Below, in pieces: positions 36,629 through 54,726 of a DNA stretch of 64,000 nucleotides (position 1 is its first letter; each line of letters starts with the position of its first letter). The position numbers were made by a program, and so were the translations under genes. Source of the stretch: Microlunatus flavus (GTDB lineage Bacteria > Actinomycetota > Actinomycetes > Propionibacteriales > Propionibacteriaceae); assembly GCF_900110855.1 (NCBI RefSeq), contig NZ_FOFA01000003.1, positions 62,001-126,000 on the forward strand, given 5' to 3'. The notes beneath the pieces are model-generated. The model was not told the origin of the DNA and searched no databases. It saw only the letters and a program-made list of their open reading frames with translations.

Positions 36629-37231
36629 ATGGCTCCTCTCCTGATGCCGTTGGCGGAGAACCCGCTCTTCCCCAACCTGCTCGAGATCATCCTGGCGGTG
36701 GTCTTCGCGCTGCTGCTGTGGTTCCTCATCGCCAAGTACGTCGTGCCGAACTTCGAGCGCACGTACGCCGAGCGCACCGAGGCGATCCAGGGCGGCATCG
36801 AGAAGGCCGAGCGCGCCCAGGCCGAGGCCCAGGCCGCGCTCGAGCAGTACCGCGCGCAGCTCTCGGACTCCCGGGCGGAGGCGGCTCGCATCCGCGAGGA
36901 CGCCAAGACCCAGGGCAGCCAGATCCTGGCCGAGATGCGTGAGCAGGCCCAGGCCGAGGCGAACCGCATCCGCACGCAGACGCAGGCCCAGCTGGAGGCG
37001 GAGCGCGTGCAGGCCATGACGCAGCTGCGCAACGACATCGGCGGCCTCGCGACCACGCTGGCCGGACGGATCGTGGGCGAGAGCCTCGACGACGACGAGC
37101 GTGCGCGCCGTACGGTCGACCGCTTCATCGCCGACCTCGAGTCGCAGGACGTCGCGCGCGACGCCAGCGAGGGCCAGGGCGGCGACGAGGGTCGCTCGGG
37201 TTCGCACGCCTACTCCGCGGACCCGGCGTGA
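36629..37231 (+). CDS. atpF: F1Fo ATP synthase subunit b
   Basis: Peripheral stalk subunit, 200 residues: one membrane segment (LLEIILAVVFALLLWFLIAK) then a long charged coiled coil (Ala/Glu/Gln/Arg-rich) to about residue 165, and a Gly/Asp-rich C-terminal tail not needed for the stalk. Start is 5 bp after the atpE stop. The stop overlaps the atpH GTG. Confidence 0.95.
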   Translation: MAPLLMPLAENPLFPNLLEIILAVVFALLLWFLIAKYVVPNFERTYAERTEAIQGGIEKAERAQAEAQAALEQYRAQLSDSRAEAARIREDAKTQGSQILAEMREQAQAEANRIRTQTQAQLEAERVQAMTQLRNDIGGLATTLAGRIVGESLDDDERARRTVDRFIADLESQDVARDASEGQGGDEGRSGSHAYSADPA

Positions 37232-38016
37232 GCGAGCGGTCCCGCGAAGCGGTCCTCGACGACGCGCTCGACTCCGTCGGGGTCGACGCGCAGTTCGCCG
37301 CCGAGCTCTTCGCGGTCGTCGACGCGCTCGAGACCTCGGTGGCGCTGCGGCGCGCGGTGACCGACCCGGCGGCGTCGGAGGACCGGCGCTCAGGGCTCGT
37401 GCACGCGCTCTTCGACTCCCGCGTCAGCGGGCCGGTGGCGGCGTTCGTCGCCGACGCGGCCCGGCGGCGCTGGAGCAGCGGGCGCACGTTCGTGGACGCC
37501 CTCGAGCGCGAGGCGGTCCGGGCCCAGCTCCGGGCGGCGGACGCCGACGGCAGCCTGGACGACACCGAGGACGGCCTCTTCCGCTTCGCGCGGATCGTGG
37601 CCTCCGACCGCGACCTGCGCACGGCGGTCTCGGACCGGGTCGTGCCGCTGGAGGTGCGCCAGCAGCTGGTGGCCGACCTGCTCGCCGACCGGGCGACGCC
37701 GGCGACGGTGGCGCTCGCGCGCCGTGCGGTCGCGGCGCGGAACCGTTCGTTCGACCTGACGGTCGAGACGTACGTGGACCTCGCCGCCGCGCAGAAGGAC
37801 CGCGTCGTGGCGACGGTCCGGGTGGCCCGTCCCATGACCGACGACCAGCGGCAGCGGATGCGGGCCGCGCTCAGCCGGCAGGCCGGGCGCGACGTGGTCG
37901 TGCAGGAGGTCGTCGACCCGGGCGTGGTCGGCGGGGTGCGCGTCGAGCTCGGCGACGAGGTCCTCGAGGGCACCGTGGCCGCCAAGCTGGACGAGGCCAA
38001 GCGCCTCTTCGACTAG
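37228..38016 (+). CDS. atpH: F1Fo ATP synthase subunit delta
   Basis: Peripheral stalk subunit that joins b to F1. The 262-residue protein, long as in actinobacteria, has an N-terminal helical domain and the C-terminal signature [21 protein letters not shown]. Start GTG overlaps the atpF stop by 4 bp. Confidence 0.95.
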
Positions 38017-38158
38017 GACCACCCCTGCGGCAGGGTTGTCCCACCCGGCCGCAGGACGTAAGCAGGCAGTAGCGGGCGCGCAGCGCACGAGAAGCAGACG
38101 ACACGCCAGACAGACGAACAGTGTTCAGCACACGAGCGACGAGAGCAGGCAGCAGGCG

Positions 38159-39796
<1,638 letters not shown>

Positions 39797-39800
39797 CCCC

Positions 39801-42192
<2,392 letters not shown>

Positions 42193-42210
42193 TCGTGGCT
42201 GAGTCCGTCC

Positions 42211-42230
42211 CGGGGGGGACGACCCCCCCG
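42211..42230 (+). promoter_or_regulatory. GC hairpin between atpD and atpC
   Basis: CGGGGGGG (42211-42218) and CCCCCCCG (42223-42230) form a perfect 8-bp stem with an ACGA loop, 18 bp after the atpD stop. A second GTGGCTGAG at 42195 echoes the real atpC start ATGGCTGAG at 42250. The hairpin may lower epsilon synthesis relative to beta. Confidence 0.5.
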
Positions 42231-42249
42231 AACCCTCCCGAGGTGAGGC

Positions 42250-42654
42250 ATGGCTGAGCCGATGCAGGTCGAGGTCGTCTCCGCCGACAAGGTCATCTGG
42301 TCGGGCGAGTCGACGAACGTCATCGCCAAGACGACCGACGGCGAGATCGGGATCCTCCCCGGTCACGCCCCGGTCCTGGCTGTGCTGCAGCCCAGCGCCG
42401 TGGTGATCTTCTGCGAGGACGGCCGCAAGCGTGAGGTGGTGGCCGTCGACGGCGGCTTCGTCTCCGTCTCGCAGGGCCGGGTCTCGATCCTGTCGGAGTA
42501 CGCCCGGCTGGCCGACGAGCTGTCGGTCGGCGAGGCGGAGCGTGAGCTCGCCGAGGCCCAGCAGCGCCTCGACTCCGGCGACGGGAACGAGGAGGACCGC
42601 AAGCACTTCCAGCGGGCCACCGCGCAGCTTCGCGCGGCGCAGAAACGGCAGTAG
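42250..42654 (+). CDS. atpC: F1Fo ATP synthase subunit epsilon
   Basis: Regulatory central-stalk subunit, 134 residues. N-terminal beta sandwich (MQVEVVSADKVIWSGE, GEIGILPGHAPVLAVLQP) and a C-terminal helical hairpin. Start ATG has GAGGTGAGGC upstream. It ends the atp operon. Confidence 0.96.
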   Translation: MAEPMQVEVVSADKVIWSGESTNVIAKTTDGEIGILPGHAPVLAVLQPSAVVIFCEDGRKREVVAVDGGFVSVSQGRVSILSEYARLADELSVGEAERELAEAQQRLDSGDGNEEDRKHFQRATAQLRAAQKRQ

Positions 42655-42706
42655 CCCTCGAGGGCGCCCGGCGCGCCCGCCGAGGTCCTTCCGGCTGAGC
42701 CCGGAC

Positions 42707-42736
42707 GAACCGCCCGCGTTTTGGCGCGGGCGGTTC
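42707..42736 (+). terminator. terminator-like hairpin after atpC
   Basis: A perfect 12-bp stem (42707-42718 with 42725-42736) with a TTTTGG loop, 52 bp after the atpC stop. No U-tract, but it is the only strong hairpin before the DUF2550 gene. Confidence 0.6.
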
Positions 42737-42790
42737 TCGCTGCCATGCTCGTTGCAGCGCACGTGATCGGACCGACGGCGAGGACGGTGG

Positions 42791-43240
42791 ATGAGCGGTT
42801 TCCTGGGGGTCCTCGAGGTCCTGGGGCTGCTGCTCGTCCTCGCCGTGCTCCTGCTGCTGCTCCTCGCGGTGCGGCGCCGGTGGCTGGCCCGCCGGGGCGG
42901 GACGTTCGAGTGCAGCCTGCGGCTGCGCACCAGCACCCCGGGCGCCGGCTGGGTCCTCGGGGTGGGTCGGTACAACGGCGGACGCCTCGAGTGGTTCCGG
43001 TTCTTCTCCTTCGCCGTCCGCCCGCGCGAGACGTTCCCCCGTGGCGAGGTCCGCGTCCTGGAGAGCCGGTCACCCGATCCCGTGGAGGCGGTGGCGCTCA
43101 CGGCGGACTCGCGCGTCCTCGCCCTCGAGAAGGGACCCCAGACGCGCGAGCTGGCCATGAGTGAGGACTCGCTGCTCGGCCTCCTGGCGTGGCTGGAGGC
43201 CGCGCCCCCGGGCATCACCTCGGGGTCGCGGGCCTCCTGA
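42791..43240 (+). CDS. DUF2550 family membrane-anchored protein
   Basis: A 149-residue protein with one N-terminal membrane helix (LGLLLVLAVLLLLLLAVRRR) and a cytoplasmic or external domain with GWVLGVGRYNGGRLEWFRFF. The family is known from the same place after atpC in many actinobacteria; function unknown. It converges with the Asp23 operon at 43266, leaving 25 bp between the stops. Confidence 0.85.
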   Translation: MSGFLGVLEVLGLLLVLAVLLLLLLAVRRRWLARRGGTFECSLRLRTSTPGAGWVLGVGRYNGGRLEWFRFFSFAVRPRETFPRGEVRVLESRSPDPVEAVALTADSRVLALEKGPQTRELAMSEDSLLGLLAWLEAAPPGITSGSRAS

Positions 43241-43265: not shown

Positions 43266-43904
43266 TCAGTGCACCGGGGCCACCGGGGTGACGGTGATCT
43301 GCCCCTTGCCCGTCTTCGCGCTGCTCACCTCGACCTGCACGCCGAGGCGCTGGAGCCGGGTGTCGAGCGCGCCGGCCAGGTCGCCGGCCACCTCGCGGTG
43401 GACCCGGCCGAGGACGGCCGGGATGTCGGAGCGGTCGTCGACCGTCAGGCGCACGGTGAGGTCGGGCTGCGCGACGCTGCCGCGCAGGACCGCCGACGCG
43501 CCGCTGACGCCCGGCAGGCTCTTGAGCTGGGCCTCGACCGCGTCGGCGACGACCCCTGCGTCGACCCGGGTCAAGCCGGTCTCGGCGTCGTCGTGCAGCC
43601 GGAACGGCTTCGCCTCGCGCTTGCGCGGGACCTGGGCGAGCAGCCACGCGAGGCCGAGCAGGGCCACCACGACCGCGACGAGGGCGACGAGCACGACGAC
43701 CCAGGTGAGGGCGAGCGCGGCGGCGGTGGCCGCGCCGAACAGCCGCTGCCCCGTGTCCGGGGGCGTCCAGCCGATGCCGGCGGCGGAGGCGAGCGGAGCC
43801 GCCTGGCCGGTGGACACCAGGAGCCCTGCGGCGCCCAGCAGGACGAGCAGGACGCCGAGGACGGTGAGCCAGGCGCGGTTCAGGCGGGTGGCGGACTGGC
43901 GCAT
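43266..43904 (-). CDS. AmaP-like alkaline shock membrane anchor protein (left operon, gene 5)
   Basis: A 212-residue protein with two membrane segments (near residues 12-32 and 58-86) followed by a soluble domain with VDAGVVADAVEAQLKSLPGV and LDTRLQRLGVQVEVSS. This matches the Firmicutes AmaP pattern, where a two-helix protein tethers Asp23 to the membrane. It is the last gene of the left operon and overlaps the stop of the previous gene by 1 bp. Its paralogue is at 49294. Confidence 0.82.
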   Translation of the reverse strand: MRQSATRLNRAWLTVLGVLLVLLGAAGLLVSTGQAAPLASAAGIGWTPPDTGQRLFGAATAAALALTWVVVLVALVAVVVALLGLAWLLAQVPRKREAKPFRLHDDAETGLTRVDAGVVADAVEAQLKSLPGVSGASAVLRGSVAQPDLTVRLTVDDRSDIPAVLGRVHREVAGDLAGALDTRLQRLGVQVEVSSAKTGKGQITVTPVAPVH

Positions 43905-44470
43905 CAGAGGTCCTTCGTGGTGACGGTGGCGCTCACCCGCGGGGCGGGGTCGAGGCCGGCGGCGGTGAGGGTGTCGGTGACCCGCTGGACGACGCGGTCG
44001 CGGATCTGGGCCGTCTGCTCCGAGGACGTCGTCAGGTGGAGCCGCACGCGACGGCCGTCGGAGGACGCGGAGACCTTGTCCACGCCGTCCACGCGGTCGG
44101 CCTGCGCCGCGGCCAGGCGGGCGACCGCGCCGTTGGTGATGACGTAGTCGGTCTGCCCGACCAGCTCGCCGGACGGGCCGCGGAGCTGGGTGGAGCGGTG
44201 GCCGCCGGGCTTCAGCCCGGCGAGGAGCAGCACGACGCCGGCGACGACCGCCAGCGCGGCGGCGACGACGACCGCCGGCGAGCCCCAGGTCTGGCCGGCC
44301 ACGGCCGAGGCCGGAGCGGTGGCCTGCGTCGGCCAGGTCCCGGTGGCGAGCCGGCTGATCGCGACGACGGCGGTGAGGGCGCCGAGCCCGAGCAGGAGGA
44401 CGGCGACGATCGTGGCCGGCACGGTGCGGCTGGGTCGGCGGCGCAGCCGCCGGGAGCGGGTGGTGCTCAT
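43904..44470 (-). CDS. DUF6286-like membrane protein (left operon, gene 4)
   Basis: A 188-residue protein beginning with a basic tail (TRSRRLRRRPSRTVPATIVA), then two membrane segments and a soluble C-terminal domain (GVDKVSASSDGRRVRLHLTT). This architecture is the DUF6286 family, found only with Asp23 genes in actinobacteria as far as I recall. The C-terminal fold looks like another Asp23/AmaP-type domain. Overlaps gene 3 by 4 bp. Paralogue at 48725. Confidence 0.78.
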   Translation of the reverse strand: MSTTRSRRLRRRPSRTVPATIVAVLLLGLGALTAVVAISRLATGTWPTQATAPASAVAGQTWGSPAVVVAAALAVVAGVVLLLAGLKPGGHRSTQLRGPSGELVGQTDYVITNGAVARLAAAQADRVDGVDKVSASSDGRRVRLHLTTSSEQTAQIRDRVVQRVTDTLTAAGLDPAPRVSATVTTKDL

Positions 44471-44886
44471 CGCAGGGCCTTTCTGGGAGTCCCTTCCTGC
44501 ACGGGCAGGTAGGTCACGTCGATGTCGACGCGGCGGACGTCGACGCCGGTGAGGGCCTCGACGCGGTGCGTGACGTGCTGGCGCAGGGCGGCCGCCGCAC
44601 GCCGGATGGAGCCCGGGTAGGCGATGCCGACCGCGATCGACAGGTCGGCCGACTCGCTGGAGAGCGTCACGTCGACCTTGGGCCGCGCGGCCGGGTCGGC
44701 GTCGGTGCCGATGCCGAGGAACCCGCCGGACCGGCCGGAGACCTCCGGCACCTCGGTCGCCGCCTGCGCCGCGACCTTCTCCAGCACGCGCTCGGCCACG
44801 ACGAGCGTGCCGCGCGTGCGGAGCGCGGCGTCACCGGCGACGGGCAGCGTGCGCACGCCGTCGTGGGTGGTCACGAGGCTGCTCAT
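44467..44886 (-). CDS. Asp23/Gls24 family protein (left operon, gene 3)
   Basis: A 139-residue Asp23-domain protein. The family pattern is visible in VAERVLEKVAAQAATEVPEV, then LSIAVGIAYPGSIRRAAAAL, then VTHRVEALTGVDVRRVDIDV. Asp23-family proteins are abundant cytoplasmic envelope-stress proteins placed at the membrane by AmaP. This copy differs clearly from the gene 1 protein, so the operon makes two Asp23 types. Overlaps both neighbours by 4 bp. Confidence 0.88.
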   Translation of the reverse strand: MSSLVTTHDGVRTLPVAGDAALRTRGTLVVAERVLEKVAAQAATEVPEVSGRSGGFLGIGTDADPAARPKVDVTLSSESADLSIAVGIAYPGSIRRAAAALRQHVTHRVEALTGVDVRRVDIDVTYLPVQEGTPRKALR

Positions 44887-45065
44887 CGCTTGGCCGTGGC
44901 CCGCCCCAGGAGGCCGGCCAGGTCGAGGCGGCCGTCGAGCACGAGCCCGACGACGAGGCCGACGGCCCCGAAGAGCAGCACGACGACGAACGCGCCGAAC
45001 GTGCCGAAGGCGGCGGTGAGGCCCAGGATCAGGCCGACGAACAGGGCGGTGGTGGTGCGCGACAT
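44883..45065 (-). CDS. DUF2273-like small membrane protein (left operon, gene 2)
   Basis: A 60-residue protein, almost all two membrane helices with a glycine zipper pattern (LFVGLILGLTAAFGTFGAFV and LLFGAVGLVVGLVLDG) and a short basic tail. It matches the DUF2273 type of small integral proteins found in Asp23 operons. It differs from its copy at 48121 at only about ten positions. Confidence 0.82.
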   Translation of the reverse strand: MSRTTTALFVGLILGLTAAFGTFGAFVVVLLFGAVGLVVGLVLDGRLDLAGLLGRATAKR

Positions 45066-45141
45066 GGCGCAGTTCCTTCCTCGGGGTCGGGGCGCGGGGT
45101 GCGCCCGGAGTGGTGGCGGGGTGGTGGTGACGCGGCGAGGA

Positions 45142-45169
45142 GCGGCCGCACCGGGGTCGGTGCGGCCGC
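45142..45169 (-). promoter_or_regulatory. intercistronic hairpin after gene 1 of the left Asp23 operon
   Basis: A perfect 11-bp GC stem (45142-45152 with 45159-45169) with a 6-nt loop, 15 bp downstream of the Asp23 stop. An equivalent hairpin occupies the same place in the right operon (48048-48088). It probably raises the ratio of the first Asp23 protein over the membrane components. Confidence 0.6.
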
Positions 45170-45183
45170 CCGTCAGGGTCGGG

Positions 45184-45684
45184 TCAGCGCAGCGGCGCGC
45201 CGGCGGTGTCGACCGCGTCGTCGTCCTCGTCCGGCAGGTGGACGTCGGAGACGTTCACGTCGACCGAGACGACCTCGAGCCCGGTGCCGAACTCGACCGC
45301 GCGGATGACGTTCTCGCGGATCTGCTCGCTCACGGTGACGATCGAGGCGCCGTACTCGACGACGACGGACACCGACACCGTGGCCTGGCTCTCGCCCTTC
45401 TCGATGCTCACGCCGTCGGACACGCTGGCCTGGCCGGTGCCGCCGGTCACCCGGTTGGTCACCGAGCTGATGGCGCGGCGTGCGGCGTTGCCCATGGCGT
45501 ACACGCCGGGGACCTCGCGGGCCGCCATGCCGGCGATCTTGGCGACGACGGTGTCGGCGATCGTGGTGTCGCCGTGCTCGGTGTGCAGGGCGTCGATCTG
45601 CTTGGGCGCGGGGGCGTCGGCGGCGGCCTTCGCGGCGGCGGACTGGCGCTCCTCGACGGTCTGCGGGATCACGGTGTCGGACAT
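45184..45684 (-). CDS. Asp23/Gls24 family protein (left operon, gene 1)
   Basis: A 166-residue Asp23 protein. The core reads VVAKIAGMAAREVPGVYAMG, then SVSVVVEYGASIVTVSEQI and GTGLEVVSVDVNVSDVHLP, a clear Asp23 domain. The N-terminus is an Ala-rich tail and the C-terminus acidic. Start ATG 45684 was chosen because TAGGAG lies 5 nt upstream and the start aligns with its paralogue at 47534; GTG 45690 is less likely. It is first in the left operon, directly after an ECF-type promoter. Confidence 0.93.
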   Translation of the reverse strand: MSDTVIPQTVEERQSAAAKAAADAPAPKQIDALHTEHGDTTIADTVVAKIAGMAAREVPGVYAMGNAARRAISSVTNRVTGGTGQASVSDGVSIEKGESQATVSVSVVVEYGASIVTVSEQIRENVIRAVEFGTGLEVVSVDVNVSDVHLPDEDDDAVDTAGAPLR

Positions 45685-45753
45685 GGTCACTCCTACGGTT
45701 CGGGCGCTTCTTGGTGTTGCGCTGACACCTGTAGGTCGGAGCCTGCGAGTATT

Positions 45754-45781
45754 TCGTCACGCGGATCCGCGAACTTTTTCC
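45754..45781 (-). promoter_or_regulatory. putative ECF-sigma promoter of the left Asp23 operon
   Basis: On the minus strand GGAAAAA (45781-45775) is the -35 element and CGTGACGA (45761-45754) the -10 element, with 16 bp between GGAA and CGT, the classic ECF layout. The right operon carries the same two elements at 47448-47476. The sigma gene at 45839 runs away from it on the other strand. Confidence 0.6.
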
Positions 45782-45838
45782 GTGCGCGCCCGCTGGACGG
45801 TCGACGAGGACCGCCCGGAGGAAGGAGGAGCACGGCCG

Positions 45839-46453
45839 ATGACCCCCGATGCCGACCCCTCCGTGGTGCAGCCCCTCGACGCGGGCGCGTACGAGGAGTG
45901 GGACGACGCGAGCCTGGTGGGACGTGCCGCCAGCGGGGACGACTCCGCCTTCGCCGTGCTCGTGCGCCGCTACCAGGGCCCGCTGTTCCGCCACGCGCTG
46001 CGCCTGACCCCGGACCGTCGGCTGGCGGAGGACATCGTCCAGGAGGCGTTCCTGACCGCCTGGCGGCGCCTGCCGACGCTGCAGACGCCCGAGGCCTTCC
46101 GCGGCTGGCTCTACCAGATCACCACCCGGCGCAGCATCGACGCCTTCCGCGCGCGCCGGCCCGAGCAGCCGGTCGACACCACCGCGCCGGAGCTCGACGG
46201 GCTGGTCGCCGCCGAGCCGGGTCCCGAGGCGCGGGCCGAGCAGCGCGCCCAGCTCGGCGACCTCGCCGCGGCGCTGCAGGAGCTGCCGGTCGCCCAGCGG
46301 GCCGCGTGGGCGATGCGCGAGGTGGACGGCCTGTCGTACGAGGAGGTCGCCGTGGCCCTCGGGGTGCCGGTCAGCACGGTGCGGGGGCGCATCGCCCGCG
46401 CCCGTCGTGAGCTCGTGGAGAGGATGGGGTCGTGGCAGACGACGCGCGACTGA
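45839..46453 (+). CDS. ECF-type RNA polymerase sigma factor (cassette A)
   Basis: A 204-residue sigma factor. Region 2 has LVRRYQGPLFRHALRLTPDR and AEDIVQEAFLTAWRRLPTL; region 4 has LPVAQRAAWAMREVDGLSYEEVAVALGV then STVRGRIARARREL. A short acidic N-terminus precedes region 2. ATG 45839 has GGAGGAAGGAGG upstream. The next gene starts inside its last codons (22-nt overlap), so the two proteins are made together, typical of a sigma and its anti-sigma partner. Confidence 0.92.
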   Translation: MTPDADPSVVQPLDAGAYEEWDDASLVGRAASGDDSAFAVLVRRYQGPLFRHALRLTPDRRLAEDIVQEAFLTAWRRLPTLQTPEAFRGWLYQITTRRSIDAFRARRPEQPVDTTAPELDGLVAAEPGPEARAEQRAQLGDLAAALQELPVAQRAAWAMREVDGLSYEEVAVALGVPVSTVRGRIARARRELVERMGSWQTTRD

Positions 46454-47046
46454 GCTGCGGGCGCTCCATCGACGACGTGTGGAGCCACCTCGACGGCCCT
46501 CCCGACGAGCACGAGCGCACCTGCCCCTACTGCCTCGAGGCACGGGCGCGGCTGCTGCGGCTCTCCGACGCCGCCATCGACCTCCGCTCCACCGAGGCCG
46601 CCGACCCGGCCCTGCAGCCGGACCCCGGGTTCACGGCGTCGGTGATGGGGCTGGTGCGCGCCGAGGTCCGGCGCGGCCAGGCCATCCCCCTGGACGCCGA
46701 CGAGGTCCCCGGGCTGACGATCAGCGAGCAGGCGGTGGTCGGCCTGGTCTGGGCCGCGGCCGACTCCGTGCCTGGCATCCGGGCGCGCCGCTGCCGAGTG
46801 CGTCCCTTCACGGACGACGACGGCGACGGGGACGGGGACGGCGGGGAGGACGGGTGGCAGCCGCCGGACGAGCACGAGCTGCGGAGCGGCACGCTCGTCG
46901 ACGTGGACCTCGCGCTGGCCGTGGAGCCGGGCACCTCCATCGTCGAGGCCACGGCCACCCTGCGCCGCCGCGTGGCCGAGCAGGTCGCCCGGGAGACGGG
47001 CCTCGGCGTTCGACGGGTCGACCTGACGGTGGAGGACGTGCTGTGA
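46432..47046 (+). CDS. putative anti-sigma factor: zinc motif fused to Asp23-like domain (cassette A)
   Basis: A 204-residue protein. The first 35 residues carry Cys9, His27, Cys31 and Cys34 (C-x17-H-x3-C-x2-C, within HERTCPYC), the layout of zinc anti-sigma factors such as RsrA. The middle and C-terminal parts look Asp23-like: LTISEQAVVGLVWAAADSVPG, then VDVDLALAVEPGTSIVEATA and TGLGVRRVDLTVEDVL. A short run of Asp/Gly is inserted near residue 125. Together with its overlap with the sigma gene this suggests a soluble or membrane-recruited anti-sigma factor that senses the Asp23 assembly. Inference, not shown. Confidence 0.78.
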   Translation: MADDARLSCGRSIDDVWSHLDGPPDEHERTCPYCLEARARLLRLSDAAIDLRSTEAADPALQPDPGFTASVMGLVRAEVRRGQAIPLDADEVPGLTISEQAVVGLVWAAADSVPGIRARRCRVRPFTDDDGDGDGDGGEDGWQPPDEHELRSGTLVDVDLALAVEPGTSIVEATATLRRRVAEQVARETGLGVRRVDLTVEDVL

Positions 47047-47408
47047 CGGGACCGACCCACGCCGAGCTCCGGGCGGCGACCGACGACCTGCGCGACGAGC
47101 TGGCGGCCGCCACCGAGGCGGTTCCCGGGGTCGTCCGGCTCGAGCCCACGCTGCGCAACGCGCTGCGCCGCCTCCAGGCCGGCACGACGGTGCTCGCGAA
47201 CGGTCGGGCCGCCCGCTCGGCCGCCGACGGCATCGAGCTGCACCGCCGCGGCGAGGTCGTCGACGTCCACGTCGACGTCGCGACGGCGGCCGACCGGGCC
47301 GCCGGGGCCACGGCCCGCGAGGTGCGCCAGGCGCTGGCGCGGGTGCTCGTCGCGCACGCCCTGGAACCCGGCTCGCTCACCGTGGCGGTGCTCAGCGTCG
47401 AGCGCTGA
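47043..47408 (+). CDS. small Asp23-like partner protein (cassette A)
   Basis: A 121-residue protein of unknown function. It contains VPGVVRLEPTLRNALRRLQ, GEVVDVHVDVATAADRAAG and a C-terminal LEPGSLTVAVLSVE, matching its paralogue at 52649 (HPGVLRLEPTL ... GRVVDLDVNLAT). The alternating strand pattern resembles one half of an Asp23 domain. Start GTG overlaps the previous stop by 4 bp. Confidence 0.72.
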   Translation: MTGPTHAELRAATDDLRDELAAATEAVPGVVRLEPTLRNALRRLQAGTTVLANGRAARSAADGIELHRRGEVVDVHVDVATAADRAAGATAREVRQALARVLVAHALEPGSLTVAVLSVER

Positions 47409-47447
47409 GCACCCCCTGAGCGCACGACCGCCCCGCGGCGGTCAGCA

Positions 47448-47476
47448 GGAAAAAAAGTGTGTCGTCCGCGTGACGA
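47448..47476 (+). promoter_or_regulatory. putative ECF-sigma promoter of the right Asp23 operon
   Basis: GGAAAAAAA (47448-47456) and CGTGACGA (47469-47476) with 17 bp between GGAA and CGT. CCGCGTGACGA is shared exactly with the promoter of the left operon. Transcription would begin about 50 nt upstream of the ATG at 47534. Confidence 0.6.
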
Positions 47477-47533
47477 TCGCGCACGACCGAACGTCCTCCC
47501 TGGTGAAGGCACTCAACCAGTGAAGGAGTTCAC

Positions 47534-48040
47534 ATGTCGCAGACCGTCGTCCCCAGCACCGGCGAGGAGCGCCGCCACGCCGCCACGCAGGCCGCCAAGG
47601 AGGCCGAGAAGAACGCCCCCAAGGAGCTCGACGCCCTGCACACCGAGCACGGCGACACCACGATCGCCGACGGCGTCGTCGCCAAGATCGCCGGCATCGC
47701 CGCCCGCGAGGTGAACGGGGTCTACGCCATGGGCAACGCCGCGCGCCGCGCGATCGGCAGCCTGGCGCAGCGCATCCCGGGCAGCACCCAGCCCAGCGTC
47801 ACCGGCGGCGTGTCCGTGGAGAAGGGCGAGCGCGAGACCGCCATCGACATCTCGGTCGTCGTCGAGTACGGCGCCCCCATCGTCACCGTGAGCGAGCAGA
47901 TCCGGGAGAACGTCATCTCCGCCGTCGAGTACGGCACCGGGCTCGACGTCGTCTCGGTCGACGTGAACGTCTCCGACGTCCACCTGCCGGAGGACGACAG
48001 CGACGACGCCGGAACCTCCGACGGCGAGTCGCTGCGCTGA
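47534..48040 (+). CDS. Asp23/Gls24 family protein (right operon, gene 1)
   Basis: A 168-residue Asp23 protein, close paralogue of the one at 45184 (shared LDALHTEHGDTTIAD, VVAKIAG, AAREV, GVYAMGNAARRAI, TVSEQIRENVI, VVSVDVNVSDVHLP). The N-terminal tail is Lys/Glu/Ala-rich rather than Ala/Pro-rich. ATG 47534 has GAAGGAG upstream. First gene of the right operon. Confidence 0.94.
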   Translation: MSQTVVPSTGEERRHAATQAAKEAEKNAPKELDALHTEHGDTTIADGVVAKIAGIAAREVNGVYAMGNAARRAIGSLAQRIPGSTQPSVTGGVSVEKGERETAIDISVVVEYGAPIVTVSEQIRENVISAVEYGTGLDVVSVDVNVSDVHLPEDDSDDAGTSDGESLR

Positions 48041-48047
48041 TCCTCCC

Positions 48048-48088
48048 GCCGGCGCCCGGACCGCGCCCCACACGTCCCGGGCGCCGGC
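48048..48088 (+). promoter_or_regulatory. intercistronic hairpin after gene 1 of the right Asp23 operon
   Basis: A perfect 12-bp stem (48048-48059 with 48077-48088) with a 17-nt loop, 7 bp after the Asp23 stop. Its sequence is unrelated to the left-operon hairpin but its place is the same, which argues for function. Confidence 0.6.
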
Positions 48089-48120
48089 ACCCTGCTCCAC
48101 CCGCTCAGAAAGGAACGGGC

Positions 48121-48303
48121 ATGTCCCGCACCACCACCGCCCTGTTCGTGGGCCTCGTCCTCGGCCTCAGCGCTGCCTTCGGCAGCTTCGGCTCGTTCGT
48201 CATCGTCCTCGTCTTCGGGGCGCTCGGCCTGGTCGTCGGGCTCGCCCTCGACGGCCGCCTCGACGTCGCGGGCCTGCTGGGTCGCGCGACCGAGAAGCGA
48301 TGA
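48121..48303 (+). CDS. DUF2273-like small membrane protein (right operon, gene 2)
   Basis: A 60-residue two-helix membrane protein, nearly identical in length and sequence to that at 44883 (MSRTTTALFVG start, LLGRAT-KR end). ATG follows GAAAGGAACGGGC. Its stop overlaps the next ATG. Confidence 0.82.
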   Translation: MSRTTTALFVGLVLGLSAAFGSFGSFVIVLVFGALGLVVGLALDGRLDVAGLLGRATEKR

Positions 48304-48728
48304 GCGCCTCGACCGTCACCCCCGCCGCCGGCGCTGGCGCCGCACCGCGTCGCTCCGCCCCCGCGAGCCGCGGCCGCCTCGTCCTCGGCGACAAGGTCGT
48401 GGAGAAGGTCGCCGGGCAGGCCGCCAGCGAGGTGCGCGGCGTGCTCGGCCGCGAGGGCGGGGTCCTCGGCGTCGGCGCGCACGCCGACGCCGGCGCCCGG
48501 CCTTCCGTCGACGTCGACCTCGGCCGCGAGTCCGCCGACGTGGCGCTCACCGTCGGGCTGACCTACCCCGGCTCGGTCCGGCGCGTGACCTCCGAGCTGC
48601 GCGAGCACGTCGCGCAGCGGGTCGAGGCCCTGACCGGGGTCGCGGTCCACCGGGTCGACGTGGACGTCCGCTTCCTGGTCGTGCCCGGCGCCGACGGTGC
48701 CGACGAGCCCCGGGAGCGGCTGCGATGA
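48300..48728 (+). CDS. Asp23/Gls24 family protein (right operon, gene 3)
   Basis: A 142-residue Asp23-domain protein: LVLGDKVVEKVAGQAASEVR, then DVALTVGLTYPGSVRRVTSE and TGVAVHRVDVDVRFLVV. Paralogue of 44467. ATG overlaps gene 2 by 4 bp and its stop overlaps gene 4 by 4 bp. Confidence 0.88.
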   Translation: MSASTVTPAAGAGAAPRRSAPASRGRLVLGDKVVEKVAGQAASEVRGVLGREGGVLGVGAHADAGARPSVDVDLGRESADVALTVGLTYPGSVRRVTSELREHVAQRVEALTGVAVHRVDVDVRFLVVPGADGADEPRERLR

Positions 48729-49294
48729 GCGCCGCCGCCCGTTCCCCCCGCCTGCGCCGCCGGCCGAGCCGGACGGTCCCGGCCAGCATCGTCGCCGTGC
48801 TGCTCCTCGCGATCGGCGTCCTCGCCGTCGTCGCGGCGGTCGGCCGTCTCGTGGACGGCCGCTGGGCCAGCCAGGTCAGCGCGCCGGCCTCGGCCGTCGC
48901 CGGCGTGACGTGGGGCTCCGCCGCCGTCCTGGCCGCCGCGGCCGTCGTCGCCGTCCTGGGCCTCGTGCTCCTCGTCGCCGCGCTCAAGCCGGGCGGCCAC
49001 AAGGCCGCCGCGCTGCAGGTCGAGGGCGCCGGGGTGGTGGCCGACCGCGAGTACGTGGTCTCCACCCGGGCCGTCGCCCGCCTCGCGGTCGCCCGTGCCG
49101 ACGACGTCGACGGCGTGGACCAGGTGTCGGCCTCCGCCTCCGGCCGTCGTGTGCACGTCGACGTCACCACCTCGTCGCAGCAGCGCGACGTCGTCCGCTC
49201 CCAGGTCCTCGGCGCCGTCTCCGAAGGGCTCACGGGCCTCGGGTTGTCACCCCGGCCGCGCGTCACCGTCGCGGTCCGTACGAGGGAGGTCTGA
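48725..49294 (+). CDS. DUF6286-like membrane protein (right operon, gene 4)
   Basis: A 189-residue protein: basic start RLRRRPSRTVPASIVAVLLL, two membrane segments, then a soluble domain (VARADDVDGVDQVSASASGR). Paralogue of 43904, with a shared RPSRTVPA-IVAVLLL segment. Overlaps gene 3 by 4 bp and gene 5 by 1 bp. Confidence 0.78.
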   Translation: MSAAARSPRLRRRPSRTVPASIVAVLLLAIGVLAVVAAVGRLVDGRWASQVSAPASAVAGVTWGSAAVLAAAAVVAVLGLVLLVAALKPGGHKAAALQVEGAGVVADREYVVSTRAVARLAVARADDVDGVDQVSASASGRRVHVDVTTSSQQRDVVRSQVLGAVSEGLTGLGLSPRPRVTVAVRTREV

Positions 49295-49911
49295 TGCGCC
49301 ACCACGCAGGCGGTCTCAACCGCACCTGGCTCGCCGTCGTGGGCCTCGTGCTCCTCCTGGTGGGCGCGGCCGGCATCGTCGTCGGCGCCGGCCTGCTGAC
49401 CCCGCTCGGTCGGGCCGTCGGCCTCCAGCTGACGCGTCCCGCCCCGGACGACAAGGTCGCCGGCCGGGCGACCGCGTCGGCGTTCGCGAGCACCGGGGTC
49501 GTGACCCTCGTGGTCGTCGTCGGGGTCGTGCTGGCCCTGCTGGGCCTCGCCTGGCTCGTCGCGCAGGTCCCGCGGACCGGCTCGGCCCGCCCGCTGCGCC
49601 TCGAGGACGACCCCGCCCGCGGCCTGACCCGGCTCGAGGCGGGCGCCCTGACCGACGCCGTCGAGGCGCAGATCCAGGCCCTGGACGGCGTGCAGTCGGC
49701 CTCCGCGGTCCTGCGCGGCGACGCCCGGGGACCCGACCTCACCGTCAAGGTGACGGCGGGGGACCGCACCGACGTCCGCCGCCTGCTCCAGGCGATCGAG
49801 GCCGGACCCGTCCGCGACCTCGGCGAGGCGCTCGACACGCAGGTGCGCCGCCTCGGCGTCCAGGTCGAGGTCGACACCGGCCGCCGGCGCACCCACCGCA
49901 TCACCCTCTGA
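49294..49911 (+). CDS. AmaP-like membrane anchor protein (right operon, gene 5)
   Basis: A 205-residue protein with two N-terminal membrane segments and a soluble domain (LEAGALTDAVEAQIQALDGV, LDTQVRRLGVQVEVDTG). Paralogue of 43266; both contain LARG/LLGLAWL-LAQVPR after the second helix. It probably tethers the Asp23 proteins to the membrane, by analogy with Staphylococcus AmaP. Confidence 0.82.
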   Translation: MRHHAGGLNRTWLAVVGLVLLLVGAAGIVVGAGLLTPLGRAVGLQLTRPAPDDKVAGRATASAFASTGVVTLVVVVGVVLALLGLAWLVAQVPRTGSARPLRLEDDPARGLTRLEAGALTDAVEAQIQALDGVQSASAVLRGDARGPDLTVKVTAGDRTDVRRLLQAIEAGPVRDLGEALDTQVRRLGVQVEVDTGRRRTHRITL

Positions 49912-49942
49912 CCCCGCAGCACCCGCACCGAAGGAGAACGAC

Positions 49943-50347
49943 ATGAGCATCTCGGACAAGGCCGAGGACGCCGCCGGCCGCGCGAAGGACGTCGCCGGCG
50001 ACCTCGCCGACAACCTGAGCAGCACGGCCAGGAACGTCGCCGGCGACGCCCGCGGCGCCCTGCACGACGCGCAGCGCACGGCCTCGCGCGCCACCGACGA
50101 CGCCCTCGACCAGCTGCAGCGCGGGCACGGCGTCGTCAACCGCCTGCACCGCCTCGGCGTGCGCAGCGAGTGGATGTACGCCGCCGCGTTCGGCTCCATC
50201 GGCCTCTCGCTCGCCTCCTGGGCGATCAGCCGGAACAAGACCGGTGACAGCAAGGCGCAGTCCGACCGCTGGGGCATCTTCATCGGGCACTGGGCACCCA
50301 CGTTCATGGCCCTCGGCGTGGCGCTCCGGCTCGAGGAGAAGCGCTGA
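49943..50347 (+). CDS. hypothetical stress-associated membrane protein
   Basis: A 134-residue protein with no sure family. The first 75 residues are an amphipathic Ala/Asp/Arg helix rich in repeats such as KAEDAAGRAKDVAGDLAD, similar to CsbD or LEA-like stress proteins. Two hydrophobic segments follow (WMYAAAFGSIGLSLASWAI and FIGHWAPTFMALGVALRL). It follows the right operon after 31 bp and has its own AAGGAG site; no copy exists in the left operon. Confidence 0.7.
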   Translation: MSISDKAEDAAGRAKDVAGDLADNLSSTARNVAGDARGALHDAQRTASRATDDALDQLQRGHGVVNRLHRLGVRSEWMYAAAFGSIGLSLASWAISRNKTGDSKAQSDRWGIFIGHWAPTFMALGVALRLEEKR

Positions 50348-50362
50348 CGCGCTGAACGTCTG

Positions 50363-50388
50363 GTGGCGGCCCCGACCGGGGCCGCCAC
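50363..50388 (+). terminator. terminator-like hairpin at the end of the right Asp23 operon
   Basis: A perfect 11-bp GC stem (50363-50373 with 50378-50388) with a GACC loop, 16 bp after the stop of the 49943 gene. No U-tract. Confidence 0.6.
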
Positions 50389-50406
50389 GGCCCCGGCACC
50401 AGCAGC

Positions 50407-50466
50407 ACCCCGCACGACCCCGCACGACCCCGCACGACCCCGCACGACCGCGCAGGACCCCGTAGG
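50407..50466. repeat. 10-bp tandem repeat ending in a ribosome binding site
   Basis: Four perfect copies of ACCCCGCACG (50407-50446) and two changed ones (ACCGCGCAGG, ACCCCGTAGG). The last copy runs into the AGGAGG of the Asp23 gene at 50475. Copy number changes would alter the spacing between any promoter and that gene. Confidence 0.85.
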
Positions 50467-50474
50467 AGGACCTC

Positions 50475-51302
50475 ATGACCGCCGCACCCGCAGCCACCCC
50501 CGCCACCACCGTCGTGGCTGGGCCCGCCGCGCCGTCCGCGCCCTCGCCGGGCCACGCCCCCCAGCCGACGCGGGCCGGGCGCGTCCAGCAGGCCGCGGCT
50601 CGCGCGGCCGAGCAGGTCGAGGGCGTCCACGCGCTCGGCACCGCCACGGGCCGGGCCCTGGTGCGCGCCATGGGACGGGTGCCGGGCGGGCGCACCACGT
50701 ACGGCGCGGGGGTGAGCGTCGAGGTCGGCGCGACCCAGGCGGCCGTGGACGTGAGCCTCGTCGCCGAGTACGGGACCCCGGTCCCGGCCCTGGCCGACCG
50801 GGTGCGCTCCGAGGTGCGCACACGGGTGGAACGCGAGGCCGGCCTGGAGGTCGTCGAGGTCAACGTCTCCGTGGTGGGGCTGCACCACCCCGACGACGAC
50901 GTGCCGCCCCCGGTCGAGCCCGAGCCCGAGGCGGTCGACGCGGCTCTCGTGGACGCCGCGTCGACCGACCCCGTCCGCGAGGCCGACGAGGACGTCCAGC
51001 GGATCGTCTTCCGCGCCGTGGAGGAGGCCGCAGACGCCGAGGTCGGGGTCGGCGACCCCTCGACGTCGTCCGGCGGGACCACGTCGAGGGTCGAGGACGA
51101 CCGTGCCCCTCGCGACGGCGGTGGCCCTACCGTGGTGCTGAGCGGCCGGGCCGCCGACGGCGAGGGCCCGGACATCGTGGTCGCCGACCGGGTCGTCCTG
51201 GCCGACGAGGTGGTCGTGGTCGACAGCCCGGCGGGGGACCGGGAGCCGATCGAGGAGCAGATCGAGAGGCGGGTCGGGGAGCAGCAGCAGCGTCAGGGCT
51301 AG
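50475..51302 (+). CDS. Asp23/Gls24 family protein with long acidic C-terminal extension
   Basis: A 275-residue protein. The Asp23 domain is at about 25-145: RVQQAAARAAEQVEGVHALG, VAEYGTPVPALADRVRSEV and REAGLEVVEVNVSVVGLHHP. After that come about 130 residues rich in Asp, Glu, Pro and Val with no fold I recognise. ATG 50475 has AGGAGG 5 nt upstream. It is followed 47 bp later by sigma cassette B and is probably co-transcribed with it. Confidence 0.85.
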   Translation: MTAAPAATPATTVVAGPAAPSAPSPGHAPQPTRAGRVQQAAARAAEQVEGVHALGTATGRALVRAMGRVPGGRTTYGAGVSVEVGATQAAVDVSLVAEYGTPVPALADRVRSEVRTRVEREAGLEVVEVNVSVVGLHHPDDDVPPPVEPEPEAVDAALVDAASTDPVREADEDVQRIVFRAVEEAADAEVGVGDPSTSSGGTTSRVEDDRAPRDGGGPTVVLSGRAADGEGPDIVVADRVVLADEVVVVDSPAGDREPIEEQIERRVGEQQQRQG

Positions 51303-51349
51303 GGGTGCTCCAGCCCGCGCCAGCAGGACGGAACGACGAACGGAGTGGT

Positions 51350-52051
51350 GTGGAGATCGAGGACCGTGAGGCGCTGACGGCCCCCGGTGCTGACCCGCAC
51401 GCGGAGCACGAGGCGCGCGGCGGCGTGCCGGGCGAGGGCCGCGGCGAGCCCGAGGGCGTGCCCCGGGCGGGCCAGGCGGGGCCGGCGCCGTACCCCGGCG
51501 GCCTCGCCGAGGCGACCGTCGTCGGGCGAGCGCAGGAGGGCGACCTCGAGGCGTTCGAGCTGATCGTGCGCCGCTACCAGGGGCCGGTGTTCCGGCTCGC
51601 CTACCGGATGCTGGGCGACCGGGGCGAGGCCGAGGACGTCGTGCAGGACTGCCTGGTGCTGGTCTGGCGCAAGCTGCCGAGCCTCACCGACGCGCAGGCG
51701 TTCCACCGCTGGGTCTACCAGCTCGCCACCCGCCGGTGCCTGAGCGTGCTGCGCACCCGGACCCGCCGGCGTACGGACGCCACCGAGCCGGAGGAGCTGG
51801 AGGCGGACCTCCCGCTCGACGAGGCGTCCGACCCGGCGTCGCTGGCGCAGCACCACGCCCAGCTGCGCGGGCTGGACACGTTCCTGCGACGCTTGCCCGA
51901 CGAGCAGCGAGCATGCTGGGTGCTCCGCGAGCTGCACGACCTCTCCTACCCCGAGATCGCCTTCGCGACGAACCTTCCCGTCTCCACGGTCCGGGGACGC
52001 CTCGCCCGGGCGCGCCAGAACCTCGCGAAAGGAATGAGCGCATGGCGGTGA
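51350..52051 (+). CDS. ECF-type RNA polymerase sigma factor (cassette B)
   Basis: A 233-residue sigma factor. Region 2 reads LIVRRYQGPVFRLAYRMLGD then AEDVVQDCLVLVWRKLPSL; region 4 reads LPDEQRACWVLRELHDLSY then STVRGRLARARQNLAKG. It has a longer N-terminal tail (about 60 residues, rich in Gly, Glu, Pro) than the sigma at 45839, with which it shares the RRYQGP-FR core. Start GTG 51350 is the best in-frame choice but not certain. The next gene starts within its last codons (10-nt overlap). Confidence 0.9.
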   Translation: MEIEDREALTAPGADPHAEHEARGGVPGEGRGEPEGVPRAGQAGPAPYPGGLAEATVVGRAQEGDLEAFELIVRRYQGPVFRLAYRMLGDRGEAEDVVQDCLVLVWRKLPSLTDAQAFHRWVYQLATRRCLSVLRTRTRRRTDATEPEELEADLPLDEASDPASLAQHHAQLRGLDTFLRRLPDEQRACWVLRELHDLSYPEIAFATNLPVSTVRGRLARARQNLAKGMSAWR

Positions 52052-52656
52052 GCAGCTCGACCCAGCTCGGCTGCGGTCGCGACATCGACGATGTCTGGGC
52101 CACCATCGACCGCCCGCCGAGCGCGCACGAGCAGACGTGCCCCTTCTGCGGCCCCGCGCGGGCGAGCCTGCTCGAGCTGGAGCGCGCGACCGCCGAGCTG
52201 CGCACCGCGGACGACGAGGACCCCGAGCTGCAGGCCGGTCCGCAGGTCGTGGCCCGCATCCTCGAGGTCGCCCGTTCCGAGGCCCGCCGCAGCCGTCGGC
52301 TGCCGCTCAGCAAGCCGGTCGCCGGAGAGGTGACCGTCGACCTGACGGTGAGCGAGCAGGCGGTCGCGACCGTCGTGCGCCGCGCCGGCGACCGGTACGG
52401 CGGGCTGCAGGTCCGCCGCTGCAGCATCGAGGTGGTCGACGACCCCCAGCCCCCCGAGGTGACGACGGGGGAGCGCCGCCCCGTCCGCATCCCCTCGGAC
52501 GTGCGGGTCTCCTTGCGGGTCAGCGTCGGCGCCGACGTGTCCATCCCCCAGCTGTCCAGCGAGGTCCGGCGCGCGGTCATCGCGGTCGTCGACGAGGAGG
52601 TCGGTTTGAACGTGGTCGGCGTCGACATCGTCGTGGAGGACGTGCACGATGTCTGA
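52042..52656 (+). CDS. putative anti-sigma factor: zinc motif fused to Asp23-like domain (cassette B)
   Basis: A 204-residue protein, paralogue of 46432. Cys11, His29, Cys33 and Cys36 repeat the C-x17-H-x3-C-x2-C spacing (HEQTCPFC). CGRxIDDVW is identical between the two. The C-terminal part has VDLTVSEQAVATVVRRAGDR, DVRVSLRVSVGADVSIPQLS and VVGVDIVVEDV, Asp23-like. The overlap with the sigma gene supports a sigma/anti-sigma pair. Zinc or redox sensing is inference. Confidence 0.78.
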   Translation: MAVSSSTQLGCGRDIDDVWATIDRPPSAHEQTCPFCGPARASLLELERATAELRTADDEDPELQAGPQVVARILEVARSEARRSRRLPLSKPVAGEVTVDLTVSEQAVATVVRRAGDRYGGLQVRRCSIEVVDDPQPPEVTTGERRPVRIPSDVRVSLRVSVGADVSIPQLSSEVRRAVIAVVDEEVGLNVVGVDIVVEDVHDV

Positions 52657-53077
52657 GCTCTCCCAAGACCTCACCACCGCGACCGGGCTGGACCCCGTCG
52701 CGCTCGAACCCGCGGCCGCCGTGGCCGCCCCGGAGGTGCCCGTGGACCCCGTCGACGCGCTGCGCGAGCAGGTCGGCCAGACCGTGCTGGCCCACCCCGG
52801 CGTCCTGCGCCTCGAGCCGACGCTGCTCGGCTCGGTGCACGGGCTGCGCAAGCGCAACGGCGTCGACGGCGTGGCCGTGGCGACGCACGGCCGCGTGGTC
52901 GACCTCGACGTCAACCTCGCGACCCGCGCGGAACGTCAGGCCCGGGCCTCGGTGCTCGAGCTGCACGACCAGCTCGTCGACCTCGTCGCCCGGTGCGGGT
53001 TCGTGCCGGGGACGATCGAGATCAGCGTGCTCGCCATCGAGCCCGCCGTGGAGACCGCAGAGCCCGTCGCCGGCTGA
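52649..53077 (+). CDS. small Asp23-like partner protein (cassette B)
   Basis: A 142-residue protein, paralogue of 47043 with the shared HPGVLRLEPTL and GRVVDLDVNLAT segments and the C-terminal GFVPGTIEISVLAIEP. About 30 extra N-terminal residues are Ala/Pro-rich. ATG overlaps the preceding stop by 8 nt. Confidence 0.72.
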   Translation: MSELSQDLTTATGLDPVALEPAAAVAAPEVPVDPVDALREQVGQTVLAHPGVLRLEPTLLGSVHGLRKRNGVDGVAVATHGRVVDLDVNLATRAERQARASVLELHDQLVDLVARCGFVPGTIEISVLAIEPAVETAEPVAG

Positions 53078-53110: not shown

Positions 53111-54444
53111 TCACCGCTCGCAGGCGATGCCGTCCTTGTCGCGGTCGCTCTTGGTGTTGAGCTTGTAGGTCTTGGTGTCGCGGACGAAGTTCGTGACGCT
53201 CCCGCCCTTGTCCTTCGCGCCCGACCGGCCGACGCCGTGCGGGTACACCTTGGTCAGCGCGGTGCAGTTGGCGTACTCCTTCGGCTTCGGCTTGGCCGGC
53301 GGCTTGGGCTTGACGACGAGGTGGTCGGCGCCCGAGGCAGCCGCCTCGGTGGTGCTGCTGCCCGCGTACCGGTAGCGGTACGACCCGGAACCGCTCGGCT
53401 TGACCTTCGCCGAGAGCGTGCCCTTCTTGCTGCTCGTGACGATTTTGACCTTGCTCCAGCCGCCCCCGTCGCGGCGGAACTCGAGCACGGTCTTGGCCTT
53501 CCAGCCCTTGCCCTCGCGCTTGATGCTGCCCTTGACCTTGACCGAGCCGCCCTTCGTCACCGACGCGGGCGCCGCGACCGTGAGGCGGACGGTCGCCTTG
53601 CGGACGTCGACGTGGTCGGCACCCGAGGTGCCGGCCTGGGTCTTGCTGTCACCGGCGAAGCGGTAGCGGAAGCTGCCGGGACGGTCGGCCTTCACCGAGG
53701 CCGACAGCGCCCCCTTCGTGCTGGCCTTGACGGTCTTGACCTTCGCGTACGCGCCGTCGCCGTCGGCCTGGAACTCCAGCACGGTGGACGCCTTGTACGC
53801 CTTGCCGTCGCGCCGGAGGCTGCCCTTGACCCTGATGGTCGAGCCCTTGATCGCGGGCTCGGGCGAGGCGTCGACGGTGAGGACGGCGGCCGGCAGGGGA
53901 GCGGGCGCCGGCGGGTCCGGGGTCGGCTCCGGCGTGGGCGTGGGCGTCGGCTCCGGCGTGGGCGTGGGCGTCGGCTCCGGCGTGGGGGTCGGTTCGTCCT
54001 GCCGGACGACCGTCACCTGCTGTGAGTAGGTGGAGCCGTAGTGCTGCCCGAGGTCCGGGCTGTACAGGTCGACCTCGAGCGTCGCTGCGCCGCTGAAGAT
54101 CTCGTCCCCGTAGCCCAGCCCGAGGGCGATCTCCTCGGTGGTGACGGATACTCCGGTGCAGTCGGCGGGAGCCGTTCCTCCGGCGCTGGCCTGGTACTCG
54201 CCGTTGCCACGGACCTCGCTGACCGTCACCGCCAGGACGACGGGATCGTCCGGGCTGGTGCCGTCGACGAGTCCCGAGCAGTTGTAGCTCACCTCATCGT
54301 GCCGTGGAAGGCGTCGGCGAAGAGGACGTCGTCCTGCACCGGGTCGACCTGCAGGGTCGCCGGGGCCGCGGACGCCGTCGCGGGCGCGAGCGCGAGTCCG
54401 AGGGTGAGGGCGGCGAGGGCAGCCGGGAGCCGGAGTCGTGTCAT
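53111..54444 (-). pseudogene. secreted Ig-like/Excalibur protein with a frameshift after the signal region
   Basis: ATG 54444 starts a clear signal peptide (MTRLRLPAALAALTLGLALA, ending near ATASAAP), but that frame stops at TGA 54291-54289. The downstream domain continues in another frame (EVSYNCSGLVDG onward): a cysteine-bearing domain, a Pro-Thr-Glu linker of PTPTPEP repeats, two copies of an Ig-like repeat of about 85 residues (KGS-KR-GK--KA-TVLEF), and a C-terminal Excalibur calcium-binding motif (DRDKDGIACE). Neither half makes sense alone, so this is a frameshift of the gene, a sequence error, or recoding. Reinitiation at the GTG overlapping the TGA would give a protein without export signal. 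Confidence 0.75.
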
Positions 54445-54726
54445 GGAACCTCTGGTCGTCGAGCCAGGCACGGCGTCGTCCGGGGCACGAGGGCTGACGG
54501 ACGCACGACGGCGCGCTGGCGGGCGGGGGTGTCAACGGTGGCCGACCAGGGGCGTGCAGAAGGAACCATCCCCCGGTGGTCGCCGCACCGTAGCCCGCCG
54601 GGACCGTTCCCTGTGCACATCCTGAGAAGAAACCCTCGTTGGGGTGAGAGGCGTGACGGCGCCGGGGTCCGTGGCGTCCTGGCAGGTGGACCACCCGTCG
54701 ACCCGAACCGCCCACCAGGAGGTGCC

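Follow-up and report, generated by a model that had tools for sequence, protein, structure and literature searches.

A double Asp23 island in Microlunatus flavus with ECF sigma factor genes beside candidate zinc anti-sigma proteins that carry an Asp23 domain

The asp23/amaP operon of Staphylococcus aureus is driven by SigB. In this organism Asp23 has been linked with the membrane and with homeostasis of the envelope, while what it does at the molecular level is still open: AmaP anchors it at the membrane, without AmaP it assembles into filaments, and loss of either protein induces the cell-wall stress response (PMC6954212). In Streptomyces venezuelae ethanol reduces expression of an Asp23 gene (PMC9769785), and Asp23 and CsbD genes go up on drying in Curtobacterium (PMC12029717). 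Two groups of extracytoplasmic function (ECF) sigma factors, ECF286 and ECF292, are encoded beside soluble Asp23-family proteins, for instance in Streptomyces rimosus and Mycolicibacterium cosmeticum. According to the review that describes them, which names zinc proteins for ECF270 and ECF271, these soluble proteins are predicted anti-sigma factors of unknown mechanism (PMC8999054). Here we describe an Asp23 island of Microlunatus flavus in which each of two ECF sigma factor genes is followed by a gene joining a zinc anti-sigma-type N-terminus to an Asp23 domain. It lies in a stretch of 64,000 nucleotides (contig NZ_FOFA01000003.1, positions 62,001 to 126,000), here called the window, whose own numbering is used throughout.

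The island comprises 18 genes (43266-53077) within a G+C-rich genome of 4.79 Mb. A left operon on the minus strand and a right operon on the plus strand share the gene order Asp23, 60-amino-acid membrane protein, Asp23, DUF6286 and AmaP-like protein, and the right-hand run additionally holds a CsbD-like gene and a gene for a 275-amino-acid Asp23 protein. Two cassettes accompany them, one between the operons (45839-47408) and one at the right end of the island (51350-53077), each encoding an ECF sigma factor, a 204-amino-acid middle protein termed Zas and a small third protein termed X. Both sigma genes match the Pfam families for regions 2 and 4 above their cut-offs and no region 3 family, which places them among the ECF sigma factors (Sig1, 45839..46453, plus strand, Sigma70_r2 66.2 and Sigma70_r4_2 57.5 bits; Sig2, 51350..52051, plus strand, start uncertain, 56.5 and 49.5 bits). 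An earlier preliminary description of this DNA, made from its letters alone, had named two dedicated sigma factors and supposed that a membrane-tethered scaffold is sensed by its own regulators. It had missed the nature of the middle cassette gene, which relates the regulators to the scaffold, and with the Zas fusion that idea gains a concrete candidate part.

The zas genes (zas1, 46432..47046; zas2, 52042..52656; both plus strand) overlap the sigma genes, sigma first, which is the usual order for a sigma factor and its anti-sigma factor. Zas1 and Zas2 share 43% identity, start with CGR-x-IDDVW followed by HE-x-x-CP-x-C, and carry the zinc signature C-x17-H-x3-C-x2-C at the N-terminus. The ligands are kept in nearly all of 43 Zas sequences (C9 in 41, H27 in 40, C31 in 42 and C34 in 43); this count covers every sequence, whereas alignments A2 and A5 hold 35 and 34 of the 43, with the relatives at loci L084 and L097 in neither. 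Three ligand-poor relatives (L097:9418-9999, L084:9791-10384 and L096:9715-10305) still have a sigma gene and an Asp23 gene nearby.

A structural model of Zas1, for which 35 of the 43 sequences were used (pLDDT 86.4, pTM 0.62), predicts helices at residues 13-18, 26-30, 32-57 and 65-82, followed by an Asp23-type order of strands and helices. In zinc-class (class I) anti-sigma factors the H-x3-C-x2-C motif spans the second and third helices, and a fourth helix on a flexible linker contacts region 2 of the sigma factor (PMC7406223). The Zas1 model appears to follow this class I topology: helices two and three bear the motif, and a linker leads on to the fourth. A profile of the N-terminal part of Zas, searched against PDB sequences, had as its top two matches 3hug_B (E 0.011), which we take to be RslA, and RsiW (5wuq_C, E 0.021), with the anti-sigma factor DdvA further down (E 0.52). 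The C-terminal half is identified as Asp23 both by Pfam, for Zas1 (PF03780, 30.5 bits), and by hhalign (probability 95.7); Zas2 scores 20.7 bits against a cut-off of 28, and the domain is recognised in 27 of 35 Zas members at E<=1. Fold searches with the models of Zas1 and of X1 returned the same best PDB folds, the C-terminal domains of MamM, and since X1 alone yields them we take the match of Zas1 to belong to its modelled Asp23 half. A plain Asp23 protein had also been considered for the middle cassette gene; this was ruled out by the N-terminal zinc signature, the conservation of the ligands and the PDB profile matches. The third cassette proteins appear to be divergent Asp23-fold proteins. 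X1 (47043..47408, plus strand; model pLDDT 88.0) is related to Asp23 by hhalign (probability 89.5, E 2e-6), and X2 (52649..53077, plus strand), with no Pfam match and 36% identity to X1, aligns with the X1 family, whose alignment A3 includes 27 of the 29 X sequences identified, those of L096 and L100 being omitted.

Relatives of this module are patchily spread over several actinobacterial families as a single unit, a sigma gene and a zinc/Asp23 gene beside an Asp23 operon. With Zas1 and Zas2 as queries, matches were found in 10 of 20 genomes of the genus and, at E<=1e-9, in 24 of 196 genomes searched from the order and 19 of 296 from the class, one of the latter (G508) through the Asp23 part only. 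In a phylum sample 81 of 296 genomes matched at E<=1e-3, with the zinc part covered in just 6 of the 81. These surveys of genus, order, class and phylum reject the idea that the coupling of sigma and Asp23 genes is unique to this island, and they give no support to the coupling as such being uncommon; besides recurring in relatives it is published for ECF286 and ECF292, as the review reports (PMC8999054). The relatives were gathered into 47 distinct loci (L007, L077-L116, L157 and L159-L163) picked by a match to the Zas profile, so it is their neighbouring genes that provide the independent observation. In 45 of the 47 the sigma gene stands directly upstream of zas and in the same orientation; L093 misses the distance limit and L098 is without both genes. 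A stricter distance, which excludes L091, L093, L098 and L100, leaves 46 cassettes scored over 48 loci (L007 and L158 are the same locus, counted twice here and once among the 47). A first-Asp23 gene lies in the stretch for 43 of these cassettes, of which 30 are divergent to the Asp23 operon, 11 stand after it and 2 before it; the remaining 3 have no such gene.

The paired layout is the uncommon feature, as had been supposed. Two cassettes in one island occur in 3 of the 20 genus genomes, namely in the window, in G398 (L077) and in G735 (L157), and among the 47 loci only L077 and L157 hold two. G398 carries the full double island beside an ATP synthase, while two zas copies in G296 and three in G738 are found at separate loci. 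The genes adjoining the island in the window (36629-43240) are likewise ATP synthase-like, a name we presume from the look of their sequences, and with them stands another small gene; both this gene and atpD have homologues next to the double island of G398.

Each operon is preceded by an ECF-promoter-like element upstream of its Asp23 protein 1 gene: GGAAAAA-N13-CGTGACGA at 45751..45781 on the minus strand for the left operon and GGAAAAA-N14-CGTGACGA at 47448..47479 on the plus strand for the right. The combined pattern GGAAAAA-N13/14-CGTGACGA has 2 matches in the whole genome and 0 in a reversed control; as it was derived from these two sites, only the absence of other matches carries information. 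A matrix that was trained on six sites of the genus, with 5,320 tiles from the same loci as background, reached p<0.01 at 5 of 7 untrained genus loci and at 8 of the 33 regions upstream of first-Asp23 genes beyond the genus, where 0.33 would be expected. In these 33 regions CGTGACGA itself occurs in 12, compared with 1.1% of 6,930 tiles and 0 of 33 in the reversed control. The element thus recurs in some relatives, ahead of their homologous operons. A looser pattern matched 29 times over 12 genomes and its reversed control 17 times; 6 of the 29 lie at islands (two in G000 and one each in G050, G360, G681 and G107). Another pattern scan gave 12 distinct sites in 8 genomes with none in the control; seven of these lie at islands or at a csbD-like gene and the other five in G407, G740 and G744.

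The homologue of the CsbD-like gene in G738 (L159:921-1550), some 5 kb ahead of an Asp23 operon, stands behind the same motif, which ends 60 bases upstream of it, and this gene is likely a further member of the regulon. In G735, which lacks the right operon, the csbD-like gene and the 275-amino-acid gene, the motif lies between X1 and sig2, 280 bases before sig2. This natural deletion (L157:9092-12362) keeps both sigma cassettes and leaves the right-operon copy of the motif upstream of sig2. A motif copy belonging to the sigma genes themselves was considered and is not claimed, with p<0.01 in only 2 of 34 sigma upstream regions outside the genus (L088 and L107) and 0 of 8 within it; at L088 the sigma gene heads a co-directional run. 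The C-terminal helix of a sigma factor of this kind reads the -35 element, and since that of Sig1 and Sig2, PVSTVRGR[IL]ARAR, differs by one residue over the stretch, both sigma factors may use one promoter type.

These features point, with somewhat better than even confidence on our part, to a duplicated, self-regulating envelope-scaffold circuit in which the operons are under the control of their own sigma/anti-sigma cassettes. The operons would supply Asp23 proteins of the cytoplasm together with the proteins that partner them at the membrane (AmaP-like protein, DUF6286 protein and small membrane protein), and from each cassette would come an ECF sigma factor, Zas as a soluble zinc anti-sigma protein with an Asp23 half, and the small Asp23-fold protein X. 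In the resting state, the zinc half of Zas would keep the sigma factor bound while the Asp23 half pairs with the Asp23/AmaP-type scaffold; a membrane disturbance or a shortage of scaffold would then alter the grip of Zas and free the sigma factor. The freed sigma factor, whichever of the two it is, would transcribe both operons from GGAAAAA-N13/14-CGTGACGA, and as the right-hand run carries the csbD-like gene, a third asp23 gene and sig2, positive feedback could follow. With the Zas fusion, the cell may thus adjust expression of the scaffold genes to the condition of the envelope scaffold itself. More tentatively, Zas could act as a scaffold counter, co-assembling with Asp23 on AmaP-type anchors so that the sigma factor is held or released depending on how much of the lattice is free or intact. 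Assembly rather than a chemical signal would then be measured, by two such meters in one island that perhaps share one promoter type and have diverged sigma/anti-sigma pairs.

Several observations weigh against the proposed circuit. The relatives at L084, L096 and L097, and only these, have each lost one to three zinc ligands. The first helix of the Zas1 model is short (13-18), and the N-terminal profile matches in PDB are marginal, with a zinc-finger protein (2m0d_A, E 0.085) and RAD50 (E 0.1) close behind. The Pfam family zf-HC2 is matched by 1 of 35 Zas members (E 0.54), and no anti-sigma factor is named among the 50 matches listed in the Zas1 fold search. By hydropathy Zas1 and Zas2 are without any hydrophobic stretch, so that any contact of Zas with the membrane would be indirect. 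Concerning the promoter-like element, 25 of the 33 first-Asp23 upstream regions outside the genus fail p<0.01, the motif was not found at L078 and L081, where Asp23 genes are present, and CGTCACG, the reverse complement of the first seven bases of CGTGACGA, occurs in 5 of 33 regions compared with 3.6% of tiles.

The zinc domain itself might be the sensor, with oxidation of the Cys/His site freeing the sigma factor in the manner of RshA/SigH and the Asp23 half serving only to stabilise or localise the protein. The zinc ligands of Zas are conserved, the zinc motif is present in roughly 72% of the soluble anti-sigma factors of class I (PMC7406223), and the zinc anti-sigma domains of soluble proteins normally respond to oxidative stress, as the review states (PMC8999054). 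An Asp23 domain would be superfluous for a pure redox sensor, however, and it is found in most Zas members, with a first-Asp23 gene by nearly every cassette; moreover, the three ligand-poor relatives lack some zinc ligands and have retained their sigma gene and a nearby Asp23 gene. We regard redox sensing by the zinc domain as unlikely. Still less probable is that Zas is a co-activator or an adaptor bringing the sigma factor to the membrane scaffold rather than an anti-sigma factor: the zinc domain scores weakly against PDB and Pfam, which would allow it, but the zinc motif and helix order match class I anti-sigma domains and the overlap of sigma and zas genes is that of a sigma/anti-sigma pair.

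Within the proposed circuit, the operon genes bear out the mirrored five-gene layout of the preliminary description, whose open reading frames and family names were largely confirmed. The left and right copies share 72, 83, 55, 56 and 51% identity in operon order, and the two operons are therefore paralogous on more than the equal lengths first noted. Both Asp23 protein 1 genes (left, 45184..45690, minus strand, 90.9 bits; right, 47534..48040, plus strand, 94.8 bits) and both Asp23 protein 2 genes (left, 44467..44886, minus, 43.3 bits; right, 48300..48728, plus, 54 bits) match PF03780 above its cut-off. The reading frame given for the left Asp23 protein 1 stands, and its start is moved from the ATG at 45684 to a GTG at 45690, two codons upstream. 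The DUF6286 proteins (left, 43904..44470, minus; right, 48725..49294, plus) reach 80 and 85.7 bits with PF19803 against a cut-off of 35, the left copy having two hydrophobic stretches by hydropathy. NF033218 (AmaP) is the best family for the last operon genes, yet at 47.7 bits (left, 43266..43904, minus; two hydrophobic stretches and an Asp23-like C-terminus) and 49.5 bits (right, 49291..49911, plus) both copies stay under its cut-off of 55, and we call them AmaP-like only. A DUF2273 identity is only suggested for the 60-amino-acid membrane proteins. The left copy (44883..45065, minus; 83% identical to the right) has no match to PF10031 and the right copy (48121..48303, plus) scores 11.5 bits against a cut-off of 25.4, while 12 of 18 members of the family match at E<=1 (best 0.00027).

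The sigma, Zas and X paralogues of the two cassettes share 43, 43 and 36% identity, so that divergence is greater in the cassette genes (36-43%) than in the operon genes (51-83%). In trees, the first-Asp23 genes of the two operons group together within the genus (support 98/93); Sig1 and Sig2 are not sisters, with weak deep forks and long branches present. One operon or cassette is absent in the relatives L078 and L157. An ordinary duplication, leaving the second operon and cassette as redundant spares without separate function, would suit the joining of the Asp23 genes within the genus, these losses and the C-terminal recognition helix common to both sigma factors, but is improbable given the greater divergence of the cassette genes, the separate placing of Sig1 and Sig2 in spite of the weak deep forks, and the retention of both cassettes by G735 despite the loss of one operon.

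The rest of the right-hand run consists of two genes on the plus strand. The CsbD-like gene (49943..50347) has a CsbD-like N-terminus (PF05532, 20 bits over residues 3-52, not reaching the cut-off of 40) and a conserved C-terminal region; the 275-amino-acid protein (50475..51302) has one Asp23 domain (70.9 bits) and an acidic tail. Genome-wide, PF03780 is above its cut-off at six places, all inside the island: both Asp23 protein 1 genes, both Asp23 protein 2 genes, the 275-amino-acid protein and Zas1. X1 and X2 show no match to this family. No match to Asp23 protein 1 was found among PDB sequences. Past the island, an open reading frame on the minus strand (53111-54715) has Pro-Thr-Glu repeats and a repeated domain and the appearance of an exported protein.

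The island shares with the asp23/amaP operon of S. aureus an Asp23 gene and a membrane anchor of AmaP type in one operon (PMC6954212), and differs from it in having two Asp23 genes and a DUF6286 gene per operon, adjoining ECF cassettes and an AmaP score under the cut-off. ChrR, as reviewed, resembles Zas in having an N-terminal zinc anti-sigma domain, a separate C-terminal domain and an ECF sigma partner; its second domain is cupin-like, whereas that of Zas is Asp23 and thus related to proteins encoded next door (PMC8999054). The H-x3-C-x2-C motif and following helix of Zas align with those of RsiW (5wuq_C) and of 3hug_B, presumably RslA, although this similarity is marginal and Zas has no hydrophobic stretch.

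In the literature, searched below full-text level, the zinc/Asp23 fusion, the promoter element and the double island were not found described. A zinc anti-sigma/Asp23 fusion beside Asp23 operons in several actinobacterial families offers a direct handle on Asp23 function: it predicts binding partners, a responding promoter and a scaffold state that controls transcription. The closest described systems are ECF286 and ECF292. As in these groups, the sigma genes of the island adjoin a soluble Asp23-family protein, a likeness of gene neighbourhood, and the single module fits their published description as a kind already known; the passages of the review on these groups mention no zinc domain, third Asp23-fold gene, promoter element or double island (PMC8999054). 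The Zas fusion would thus provide a concrete architecture for ECF groups whose mechanism that review gives as unknown.

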